Origin: Metaphire vulgaris
Taxonomy: Eukaryota > Annelida > Clitellata > Crassiclitellata > Megascolecidae
Reading direction: 5' to 3'
DNA length: 64,000 bases
Assembly: GCA_018105865.1 (NCBI GenBank)
Contig: CM030849.1
Span: 8,096,587 to 8,160,586 of the forward strand
Under the pieces are notes generated by a model. That model worked only from the letters and a program-made list of their open reading frames with translations, did not search any database and was not told the DNA's origin. This document shows positions 24,508-30,500 of the stretch, one piece after another. The position numbers were made by a program, and so were the translations under genes. Position 1 is the first letter of the stretch. Each line of letters begins with the position of its first letter.

Positions 24508-27500
24508 ATGAAGCCGAGATGTGTGTGGTTGTATTGTGCTCTCGTAATGAACTTGTGGATAGAGAAGACGCTGGAAGATGTCTTCGCTTCGTCTTCTCAT
24601 CTTAGAATTTTAGCTTCAGGAGAAGAAAACATCAGATTAGCTCTGAGACATTACATCAACGAAGAGAAGCGAAGACTTGAAATTCTGCAAAGGTAACAGC
24701 CCAAACATATTTGCTAAATTTGGACCAAATTGTTTATTTTTATTTTTAGTAATAGTAATAATAATTGAATATTACGGTATTTTAACTAAGCTCAATTTTA
24801 TAGGCCTACTACGCGACTCCAAAACTAGGATCAACTCTGAAAATAGAAATGTACGATGCGTTACATACAATTCGGCACTGTATTACAATAACTTTGCGAA
24901 TTAATAGTTAAAGTCATTCCTATGAATTCAGTTTTACCGCAGAACAACTGGAGGTATGCCATTGTTTATTGTGTTTTGCTTCCATCTTTGTGCCGTTCCT
25001 TTTAAGTGCAGCTTGATTGGTCATGTATAATTGCTACCACCCCAATGGTCGAGAATGATCCCTCTTAAAGATGGAATTAGTATGACGTCCTTCGCTGTTT
25101 GAACAGTCGAGGAACTGGCATTTCCAACGCAACAATAAGCTCTTTACGCTTACTACTGTAAGTCTACCGGTAATACTGAGTAATTTGGCTAATCAGCGGC
25201 TGACGCAAAAGAAAATGCTTCCGATATTGTCCATCTATTGGCAACTGAAGAAACTTCAAAAATGCACGCAGTGTGTGTCTGTTTCAGTCTTTATGAAGAA
25301 GTGAAGACAAACAAAGAGTCTGAATTTGGTGAAGTAGAGATCCGGTCCGTCTACGAGAATCCGCTCAATGCCTTTCGACTCATCAAGCGCTTTACCACCA
25401 TCTGGAAGGAAGTCTGGAAATTCGCATCCGACTTCGCGGCCTTCAGAGGCAAAGACTAAGCAAGAAATTTGAATAATATTATTATATATAATTTCCTAAT
25501 GTCTGTCTAGTAGCGCTTTCTTCATTGGGTGAAGCGGTTGTCATTTAATAATTATTGCTAAGAAAACTAATTAATAATGGGCGGAGTTTTATAAGACGCC
25601 CTCTTCATTGCACAAGGCGCTGTTGTCATTTTATAATTAATCGTTGCTAAGCAACATAATTTAATATTGGGTGGAACTTCACGCGTAAGACAACGTTCAT
25701 CACATTACACAACACAATTTTTGGAATTCAGGACGTTTCATCTCAGGACGATTTATCTCAGGACGATTCACCGCGGACGATTCATCTCATGGACTATTTA
25801 TCTCAGAACGTTTCATCAAGAGGACTATTCATCACCCTAACTCTTACACTAACCCTAACCTACACTAACCCTAACCCTAACCTTAACCTTTATAACTTTA
25901 TCCTAACTTTTACCCTAACTCTTACCCTAACCCTTACACTAACCCTTACACTAACCCTAACCCTTATAACTTTATCCGAGATTAATAGTTCTCCTGATGA
26001 AACGTCCTCAGATGAATAGTCCTTGAGATGAATCGTCCGCGATGAATTGTCCAGAGATGAATCGTCCTAAGATGAAAGTCCGGATACCCAATTTTTGCTT
26101 CCTTAACTCTATTGGCTGTTTCTTATAGATTTGTGCATTCTGATCACGAATATCAATTCAGTATTTGCCCATCTCTTACCATTTTTGCGGATTATTAATT
26201 TTTTCAGTTCTTTTAACTCTATTTCAGTCAAAAAGTTACGTCTCTGTAGGTTGAGTAACAACAGTGCTTCTGTGCAAACTGGGCTTGTCCAGTCCAGCTA
26301 AACTGAAGCTGCTTTGTGAAAATTTGCAGCACGCACATGCCAGCTTTTGTTAAGAAAACAAGTCATCTGTATTTCGGTCATCTGCTGTAAAATTGTTTAA
26401 ATTGGTGATCAGGACAAGGAATGGGCGCCTTACAGTTGCTGTGCGATTTGTGCCGTTTGTCTCAGAGCTTGGTTCAGAGGCGCTCGGAAGGTGATGCCAT
26501 TTGCCGTTTCAAAGATTTGGCGCAATCAGAAAGATCATGCGGTGGACTGTTATCATTGTTTGACTCGTGTGTCTGTTTTGTCTAACAAAAACATGAAGTC
26601 AATCGAATAATTGACACTACCTTCAGCAATGAGACCTGTGCCACATGACGACAGTCGTCGTGGATTTGTGTAGCGCTTTGCGTGAGGCTCGCCAAATTAC
26701 TGATCATTAACGTTGACTGCATAAATTGATGCTTTTGTAGCACCTGTTTATTGTATTAACAAATCCAGATTTCGAATCAGCTATGGACGCTATTCACTAT
26801 TACATTCCCAACGATGATGACATCGAGGGCTCCAAGTTGTCCCTCCTGCGTCTTCAGATGACCTACGACCTCAGTATCAAGGACCTCCTGGAAGGTCAAG
26901 TGGCCGGGAAACGGTCGCTGCCTCTGAGTCAGCGCGAAGCCTTCGAAACGGCACTCATTGGCCTTGACATTGGAAAACCCGACGCCGCTCTGGAGTGGTT
27001 AATAATAATAATAATAATAATAATAATAATAATAATAATAATAATAATGCACTTCTATAGCACCAGCTCTAATACCAAGGATATCAATCGATGGTACTTC
27101 AAATCCATCCGTAAAAGGCCAGGCCATTTCAGAGATCAGTCGGAGGGAAAGAGTAAGACCGACTATGGAGGAAAAGCTAACTGGAAGAGATGTATCTTAA
27201 GCCTAGATCTGAAAATACTCAACGAATTGGAAGATCTGACAGCCAGAGGGAGAGAATCCCAGATTTTTGACCCAGAAATAGAAAAAGCTCTCTTGCCAAT
27301 TTCAAGGTTGGTTCTAGGTACATTTAGGCCTAACAATGAATCAGCTAACCTTGTTGAATGACGATGTTTCTGGTGATTCAACATAGATTTTAAATATTGA
27401 GTTTGGTCAGATTGCAGTATTTTAAAAACCAGGAACATTTAGAATACAGTTCACGTTTCTTTTTCTTTCCCGTGCATGCAAAGTGCTAAAGTAAACAATG

Positions 27501-30500
27501 AAAGGTCACAACGAGAAAAAGTACGTTCCGGATCCCATGCCAGACGTCCGAATCTCTTGCCAGATGTCCCAGATCGGAGATCCGGCTCAATTTAGCCCCT
27601 ATGCTCGGGCAATAGAATTCGGAATCCGTTGAAGTTTTTGTATATTAGATCTGGCCATACTATTTAGGTTAGAGAAGGCGAGAAGCCACGACGTTCCTCC
27701 GTTCGTCAGTTCCGCTGAAACGTTCGACGCAATGGCAACGGCGTATGCAATGGTAAGCGCAAAATACGGTTCAAAAAATATTTCTTGCGATTGGTTTTGA
27801 AAAAAAAAGAAATTGCTGTATGATTTTACTGAGCGAAATAGCGTTTGCGAAATGTAATGAATTGGCTGAGAATGTTGCAAAATCTATTAGTGTAAATGTT
27901 CTTTAAATCAGTGTTTATTCTAGCCACCTTGACATTGGGGGGAGTTTTACATGTTTAGGGGAATATGGTTTGTCTGCCCAAAAACCTTGACGCAACATAT
28001 AGAAATTTGGGGGATTTTCAAACCTTGGGGGGAATCCCCCAAAACAGGCCTAGAATAAACACTGCTTAAAATGAACCTCAGTACTACAGTATAAGATAAG
28101 GCTCTCTACACTCAAATAAAAGGAAACAGAGGCAGAGGAAGACGCACGAAAAAGTGGATGGCAATTGAAACAAGATTAGGTCTTCTTGGAAATATTTTGT
28201 GTGTGTGTAGCTCAGAGCTGTGCAAACGACGGAGCGCGGGTCACATGCGGCCTGCCAAGCATTTTTGCGAGTCTCGCCAGCACGCTCTAAAATCGTGCAT
28301 CTTGCTTTGCTTTGTCTAAGAGGCGTCCGATTGTGTTATTTTGTTTCAATTTTCTATTTCAATACGTGCAAAAACTTCTGCTGTCCTGTTTACATTTTTG
28401 CCCAACATCTAACTTCTAAGTTTTGCCATCTACTAAATTGATGTCCATGTGCCTTATGTTAGTCGTAGGTGATCCTGAGGTTTGACCTATTTTGCAAAAC
28501 GATCTAAGCGATATATATATAGGCCTATATATGTGTGTGTGTGTGTGTGGATGCGTATTGTCGATTCAGATCAATAATCTATTTTATCGCCTTCGAGCAA
28601 AGTTACCGCGCATATAACTGTCAACTGCACATGGCAGACAATATTCTACAAAAAGACAATCTTCTTCTTCTCCTTCTTCTTTAGGTGCCTTGTTTTACAA
28701 CGTTGGCGACCACTCCTCTCTGTCGTATGTCGCTTGTAGCAGCTCTATTTCTGATATTTTGTCTTTCACGTCGCATAGCAGGTTTTCGATGAACGTCAAT
28801 CTCTGTCTCCCTCTTGCTCTTTTCCCCATCACTTTACCTGTTGTGACTAAGTTTACCAGGCCTTTTTTCTCATTATGTGTCCGAAGAATTCTAGTTGTCT
28901 TTTCTTTATAGTCTTTAACAATTTCCTTCTTGAGTTTGCCTTTTCCAAAATTTCCTGGTTTGATGTTTTCTCTGTCCAAGAAACCTTCATCATTCTCCTT
29001 AAAACCCACATTTCCACTGCCTCTAGTTTTTTCTTCATCTGTTTGGAAATTGACCACGTTTCTGCGCCGTATAGCAATACCGACCATACATAAGTTCCAA
29101 AAAAAAAAAAAAGACAATAAGTGCACAATATTCAATGTTTATATAGATTTTTCTGAAAACTTGTGATTTTACAATTTCATTTACTTTCCACCCAAATATG
29201 AGCAGCGGCAAAAGACGCCGGTGGTGAGAAATTTGCCAGCGAAAAACAATTTTCTGCAGCGATGATCTCAGTTTTTAGCCCCACATACATTCGTGCACAG
29301 ACATTTTCTTACTTGAGCAAAAATCTAAAGATAAGTCTACACTGACTGATTCATATTTGCAGTTAGTTATGAGAATTTGTACCAGTCATCTTTCACCAGA
29401 TTTCAGAAATGTTGTTGAAAATTGTGGCCAGCTCCATGCGTCTTATTAGACAAAAGAACCAAACCTACATAGTAGTAAAGGTCAATGTATAAATGCACAG
29501 TAAATTACCAAGGTTTACTAGCATTGTAAATAAATGTCCATTTTGTAAATTTACTTTGACTGTGTTTGGCAATATAGATCAGAACAAGGAATAGAGTGGC
29601 CCATGGCCCAGTGCAGGAAAATCGATGTGGCCCACGGAAGTCTAGCTATTGCCACAATTGGCAGAGAGCGCGTTGATGATGATGATGATGATGATGATGA
29701 TGACGACGACGATGATGATGATGATGGTGGTGGTGGTGGTAGTGGTGGCAGTGGTGATGGTGGTGATGATGATGATGATGATGATGATGATGATGATGAT
29801 GATGATGACTGTAGGATACTAGATTAGTCTAGTAAAGCCATTGAGGCACCCTAACAAAACATCGTAAATAATATTGAATTCGCTTATGAGACTTATGAAA
29901 ATGGAAATGGTCACCGATATCACATACCTAGGAGCGAATATAAATTGTAATGGGATGTTGAACTAGACATAAAGCGACGCATACAACTTGGTAAGATTGC
30001 CATGACAAGGCTTGGGGAAACATGAAAAAGCAGGAACATCAGAAAGAAGACAAAATCTTACATTGTGCGGACAATACTGTTTCCTATAATGATGTATGGC
30101 TCGGAGAGCTGGACACTTCGGTGAAAGGACCGCAGGCGAATTGACGAAATTCCACTTTGCTTTATCTCGATTGAGCTCAGCCGTCTACTATAAATCGAAC
30201 TGAGCACTGTTGACACGTCAATAAAATTAAAATATTATGAATAATAACCCTGACTGCCGTAATGATACACATTGACATCATTTAGAAATATTGGCAAATG
30301 CGTGTTTGTTATAGAAAGGAGATTATCTTAAAGCGATCGACAGCATCAGAGAGGTCCTTGCACAGGGTCTGTTCTGCGTTTAGGATTTAACAGCAAGTAA
30401 ACATGCAAACGAAAGTATAGTGATGAATCGATTCTTGCGCAACAATTGTGATGACATTAATGATGATGCTAGCGGTGACGACGACGACAACGATGATGCT

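Follow-up and report, generated by a model that had tools for sequence, protein, structure and literature searches.

Two tandem P4HA genes, one with an interrupted exon

The DNA analysed here, referred to below as the window, is a stretch of 64,000 nucleotides (nt) from the annelid Metaphire vulgaris (assembly GCA_018105865.1, contig CM030849.1, positions 8,096,587 to 8,160,586). It holds two tandem animal P4HA genes (collagen prolyl 4-hydroxylase alpha), copy A and copy B, whose 5' ends are about 22.8 kb apart. Exon 3 of copy B is interrupted by a fragment of a long interspersed nuclear element (LINE), which a first-pass annotation of the sequence had proposed to be a new spliceosomal intron. 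The features are listed in Table 1.

Both genes were rebuilt one exon at a time; two distant homologues helped to locate exons 4 and 7, as well as where exon 6 begins. The 12 introns lie at matching places in copies A and B, with AG acceptors and GT donors, save one GC donor: the intron after exon 2 is apparently GC-AG in both copies (5534/5535 and 25448/25449). The Pfam domains P4Ha_N and 2OG-FeII_Oxy_3 were found in an incomplete version of copy A, which lacked exons 4 and 7 and part of exon 6 (its beginning). The iron ligands of P4HA have the form HxD...H, and the motifs that hold them, EPHYD/EPHHD and HAGCPVLLGEKW, are present in both copies. The best solved structure is 7zsc (P4HA2). A protein search returned nothing near-identical, the best full-length match being 40% identical. 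By these sequence characters, both genes are P4HA.

Table 1. Coordinates of the two P4HA genes and of the insert in copy B (positions in the window)
Feature	Position	Strand	Remark
P4HA copy A	1696..19966	+	524-aa (amino acid) open frame, 13 coding exons
Copy A exons 1-7	1696-1880, 5374-5534, 5955-6268, 8757-8808, 9188-9315, 9973-10158, 10522-10586	+	
Copy A exons 8-13	12184-12292, 14378-14431, 17060-17140, 17996-18064, 19295-19391, 19893-19966	+	
Copy A exon 3, empty site	5955..6268	+	314 nt, unbroken; GGTTA at 6183-6187
P4HA copy B	24508..41483	+	521-aa open frame with insert omitted, same 13 coding exons
Copy B exons 1-7	24508-24692, 25288-25448, 26769-27752 (interrupted), 30315-30366, 30654-30781, 32024-32209, 32556-32620	+	
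Copy B exons 8-13	33148-33256, 33544-33597, 34335-34406, 36311-36379, 37341-37437, 41410-41483	+	
Copy B exon 3, left half	26769..26997	+	
Copy B exon 3, right half	27668..27752	+	
Left GGTTA	26997..27001	+	contributes the GT of the proposed donor (26998-26999)
Right GGTTA	27667..27671	+	first G finishes the AG of the proposed acceptor (27666-27667)
Proposed intron	26998..27667	+	670 nt, GTTAAT...TATTTAG; exact frame restoration
Antisense LINE 3' fragment	27002..27666	-	genome relatives and reverse-transcriptase protein matches
(AAT)16, the LINE (ATT)n tail on the other strand	27001..27048	+	first A doubles as last base of left GGTTA
Frame for C-terminal end of LINE reverse-transcriptase protein	27166..27432	-	tblastn, 51% identity to P0122
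Filler within insert	27461..27602	.	about 142 nt, unmatched in scored relatives
First in-frame stop upon retention of insert	27359..27361	+	
Competing AG acceptor	27647..27648	+	score 4.86; with the 26998 donor leads to immediate TGA

The insert and its relatives

Direct comparison of the two exons bears out the first-pass description of exon 3 as uninterrupted in copy A and interrupted in copy B, with GGTTA on either side of the insert. Exon 3 of copy B equals that of copy A plus 670 nt, and the foreign sequence amounts to 665 nt, lying between the two GGTTA copies in an exon that is continuous otherwise. As the preceding base is T on the left and A on the right, the direct repeat measures 5 nt; because its TTA also fits the tail repeat, the actual target duplication could have been as little as 2 nt.

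The minus strand of the insert matches 29 proteins (E down to 9e-17), and the PF00078 reverse-transcriptase domain was found in 16 of them. When the body of the insert was compared with the animal's own 728-Mb genome, where copies of the LINE occur genome-wide, 40 copies were scored out of 4921 candidates. They comprise the insert itself (100%) and 39 others at 85-89% identity, over stretches that end at query positions 381-412; 23 additional matches (80-90%) cover the far end of the insert (query 555-617). Twenty-nine of the 39 made up the sample for alignment and dating. All but one of these 29 relatives begin at the first base of the insert (the remaining one at the third base), adjoining a TAA-type repeat. 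Since the relatives share this start and the minus strand encodes the end of a reverse transcriptase, the sequence identifies the insert as the 3' part of a non-LTR (long terminal repeat) retrotransposon, i.e. a LINE, inserted antisense. The annotation had called it a 5'-truncated antisense LINE: proteins and genome copies uphold the element and its orientation, but the filler argues against a clean 5' truncation. That segment is matched by none of the 39 scored relatives, and nine relatives aligned there carry a different, shorter stretch. The two reverse-transcriptase pieces on either side of 27433-27601 are 169 nt apart, where P0122 leaves room for about 100 nt by a count made by eye. A search with the 91-aa LINE peptide alone gave no match, nor did Pfam on that peptide. 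Elsewhere in the window, a LINE-like stretch at 52951 was discarded as not above chance (it scored 76, and the best of 200 shuffles 95).

One oddity within the insert is the palindrome TAGGCCTA (27325-27332), which has 19 other occurrences in the window, 20 in all; for palindromic octamers with four G/C, of which there are 96, the median count is 1. In the insert it sits within a 6-nt insertion that is missing from at least 28 of the 29 relatives; one relative, L016, has TAGGCC inserted at a different place. In this genome, the palindrome seems to be a small insertion that recurs. Among the papers listed by one literature search on it, none appeared to deal with the subject.

Splice geometry and signals

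Six excisions restore exon 3 and, by inspection, only that of 26998-27667 has GT..AG boundaries. It joins 26997 to 27668 and reads TGG TTA GAG AAG, exactly as the first-pass annotation had it, with the frame kept. The coordinates also agree with the origin proposed there for the two sites: the donor comes from the target duplication, the acceptor from the last A of the insert and the duplicated G. How often would the same element, inserted with a 5-nt duplication, yield exact GT..AG boundaries by chance? It would do so at 18 of the 1510 coding positions of copy A (1.2%). The coincidence is notable, though not decisive.

What the annotation left unremarked is that both sites are about the weakest of the gene and that a better acceptor leads to a stop; both points count against the proposed intron. 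At the proposed donor, GTG|GTTAAT, the score is lower than that of any of the 22 real GT donors in the two genes, by 1.3 bits with a vertebrate-like scoring and by 0.2 bits with own-gene scores, which rest on 22 donors and 24 acceptors only. The acceptor at 27667 scores -4.00, below 23 of the 24 real acceptors, and its score is equalled or bettered by 34% of the AGs in the window. A better AG by 8.9 bits (4.86) lies 19 nt upstream, at 27648, and its use with the 26998 donor leads to an immediate stop. By summed site score, the proposed intron is 191st of the 1170 candidate pairs of donor and acceptor around exon 3; it is one of the 59 that keep the frame open. If the insert is retained, a stop is met at codon 312, and if exon 3 is skipped, the frame shifts and a stop follows at codon 120 (zero-based numbering). 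These figures speak for the view that copy B was killed by the insertion: its transcripts, whether they retained the insert, skipped exon 3 or used the 27648 acceptor, would end early, leaving a pseudogene in which decay is not yet visible, to which redundancy with copy A and gene conversion would have contributed. The weak sites, however, seem to count against the intron only in part, because new introns of Drosophila are reported to be bounded by weaker sites and to bring in more stops if left in the transcript, and a published model has such introns sheltered by nonsense-mediated decay (PMC2809761).

Age of the insert

The distance from the insert to the nearest of its 29 relatives is 8.7%, and the median distance among the relatives is 9.1%. 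Its own branch measures 0.066 with FastTree (the longest of 30) or 0.068 with IQ-TREE (the second longest), in a tree that is largely star-like (internal branches have a median of 0.005, with one up to 0.038). Since the relatives were chosen for their likeness to the insert, this choice should shorten that branch, not lengthen it. In the 342 columns where at least 80% of the relatives agree, the insert departs at 20, and six of these departures are unique to it. Counted in the reverse-transcriptase frame, the changes in the insert comprise 3 silent, 7 replacement and 0 stop; the neutral expectation is 0.30/0.67/0.04, and the totals in the 29 relatives are 49/67/5. This looks like neutral decay after insertion, although ten changes give little power.

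The dating has a weak point: 14 of the 20 departures are also present in one to five other copies (L019 has four in common with the insert, L005 and L016 three each), so the branch could include unsampled evolution of the source. As repeated hits or old variation may thus be mixed in, two ages were used, 20/342 and, as a lower bound, 6/342. The weak splice sites and the perfect TAA run had suggested a recent disruption; this idea was dropped, since comparison with the genome relatives makes the insert look old rather than young.

Comparison of the two copies

Overall, copies A and B differ by a synonymous divergence (dS) of 0.15 and a non-synonymous divergence (dN) of 0.064; dS near the insertion is about 0.10. 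Exons 8 and 13 show zero differences, which suggests conversion between the copies. Two pairs of stretches that extend outside the coding exons (1594-1903 versus 24406-24715, and 19673-19989 versus 41186-41506) are 97-99% identical, probably through gene conversion between the tandem genes; several non-coding stretches of the two copies align at about 72%. By contrast, exons 4, 6, 7, 9 and 10 have a synonymous divergence of about 0.3-0.6 and so were not recently converted.

Over the first 14 whole codons of exon 3 (5957-5998 versus 26771-26812), about 7.5 replacement changes separate the copies, with about 0.5 silent ones. In exon 7, dN and dS are nearly the same. Both patterns could reflect either diversifying selection or a relaxation of constraint.

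Has copy B remained a working gene?

With the insert left out, no disabling mutation was found in the 13-exon coding sequence of copy B or in its other splice dinucleotides. The first-pass annotation had likewise found the other exons intact and had taken this as a sign that the gene still works. That step fails for a young insertion, because a gene just killed also looks intact; it is partly rescued by the dating of the LINE: if the insert is old, a dead copy B should have decayed. The alignment of the 29 relatives gives a rate of 22 frameshifting indels for every 236 substitutions. Had copy B been dead since the insertion, it would at that rate be expected to carry 14.6 disabling hits at 20/342 and 4.4 at 6/342, and none is seen. 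Exon 3 points the same way: codons 130-221 show two replacement differences between A and B, where an unconstrained copy B alone would be expected to have gained 12.2 (20/342) or 3.7 (6/342). Conservation between A and B extends to the two halves of exon 3, which are therefore probably joined in the mRNA.

Several results weaken this argument. Conversion by copy A may have restored intact sequence in parts of copy B. If the converted-looking exons 1, 3, 8 and 13 are left out, the expected disabling hits fall to 8.8 at 20/342 and 2.6 at 6/342, and at the lower age the probability of finding none is 0.07 (exon 12, with a dS of 0.077, is also little diverged, yet was kept in this reduced count). 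The A-B dN/dS ratio is 0.43 overall and near 1 in exon 7, so that constraint is not strong everywhere. Copy B has R345P, where all 60 aligned homologues have R, and at sites where only one copy matches the near homologue P0003, 18 favour A and 7 favour B.

R345P, the P0003 count, the likely conversion between the copies and the poor splice signals are points in favour of a copy B killed by the insertion. A dead or dying copy B is the most serious alternative, though we consider it improbable, at something like one chance in a few. The absence of disabling hits speaks against it, as do the exons with high synonymous divergence, all of which are open in copy B in spite of having escaped recent conversion. 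Nor is copy B worse overall: across the 60 homologues, the 63 differing sites split into 29 that favour A and 34 that favour B. The near homologue P0002 matches A alone at 11 sites and B alone at 9; taken jointly, P0002 and P0003 give 20 sites for A and 12 for B.

Alternatively, copy B could be alive through another in-frame splice, for example 27153-27648, which would give a 579-aa protein whose substrate-binding region contains about 58 residues derived from the element. This pair has the fourth best summed score of the 1170 and keeps the frame open, but the open frame is a property that it has in common with the proposed intron and the rest of the 59. It would place 15 isoleucines in a row in a conserved domain, and the segment 27049-27152, which would become coding, shows no sign of constraint, with seven substitutions and a 1-nt deletion relative to the state of at least 80% of the relatives. 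We regard such a product as quite unlikely. An artefact of assembly or haplotype, the real copy B being without the insert, is the least probable of all, since the exon flank 26765-26996 has two matches only in the 728-Mb assembly (copies A and B, with no third copy and no second haplotype) and the junctions are structured as in target-primed insertion.

From the above, copy B seems to have been maintained by selection for a good part of the time that it has carried the insert, a view that depends on the dating of the insert and on the extent of gene conversion. Copy B thus probably kept working after the insertion, removal of the insert by splicing being the simplest route. We favour, by a modest measure, exact intronization of the LINE insert in copy B; the weak signals, the possible help from gene conversion and the uncertain dating hold confidence down.

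A possible history of the proposed intron

The history that we propose would begin with the tandem duplication of a P4HA gene. The 3' end of a LINE would then have been copied, in antisense, into exon 3 of copy B, with duplication of GGTTA. The left duplicate would supply the GT, and the last A of the insert together with the first G of the right duplicate would supply the AG, so that the spliceosome could remove 670 nt and restore the original codons. With two such weak sites, splicing would probably be inefficient; RNAs that keep the insert or are mis-spliced, and so contain early stops, would be cleared by nonsense-mediated decay, and enough correct mRNA would be made for selection to hold copy B open. 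The insertion itself, the open frames, the divergence of the insert and the weak sites are direct observations, whereas its age, its splicing, the clearance of other RNAs and the function of copy B are deduced from them. On a fuller version of this history, the LINE fragment would have worked as an intron of copy B during most of the period since exon 3 last matched between the two genes, with splice sites that are still the weakest of the gene, and the locus would then capture a datable early stage of intron birth beside its empty site. To that version we give about even chances.

Comparison with known intron gains

Doc elements, to which the closest precedent is due, are LINEs. Intron 3 of GM26034 in Drosophila sechellia derives from Doc1053 and, like the insert of copy B, arose by retrotransposon insertion with flanking target duplications (PMC3296678). 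It is 98.4% similar to its element and adds five amino acids, whereas the copy-B insert is 85-89% identical to its scored relatives and its excision would be exact; moreover, the empty site for the latter is preserved as the neighbouring tandem copy. The event, which the first-pass annotation described as rarely seen so clearly, does have a precedent in this case: introns derived from retrotransposons, with flanking duplications, are a known type.

Other systems share parts of the proposed geometry. In Introners, as proposed for copy B, the splice sites are part element and part target duplication, and mRNA length is mostly unchanged (PMC9860276). Introners, however, form groups of introns that resemble one another, and many of them bear marks of DNA transposons, whereas the insert of copy B is one copy of an ordinary LINE family, lying in an exon. 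The novel introns of Drosophila resemble it in their weak splice sites and in the stop codons of the retained form, but most of them have no known source, while here the source is identified (PMC2809761). Transposon insertion as a route to introns was covered in a 2012 review with 35 cases in Oryza, Drosophila, Oikopleura and Zea; in insertion at AGGT, as proposed for copy B, duplicated target bases give the splice sites and the coding sequence is unaltered, the differences being that the target in copy B is GGTTA and that the A of the acceptor lies within the insert (PMC3443670). Finally, a newly intronized ONSEN insertion in Arabidopsis is an exonic retroelement spliced from the transcript, as proposed for copy B, but it is an LTR element with an immediate effect demonstrated by cDNA (PMC12112155), as opposed to a non-LTR insert that is apparently old and whose splicing is predicted from its sequence.

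The intron-gain literature, covered in part through titles and the beginnings of abstracts, named no LINE-derived intron beside an empty tandem copy. To our knowledge, there are few recent animal intron gains for which the source is known, the empty site is preserved and the age has been estimated. If RNA confirms the junction, this locus would allow the splicing efficiency of a new intron with weak sites to be measured, and the shelter that nonsense-mediated decay may offer to such an intron to be examined.

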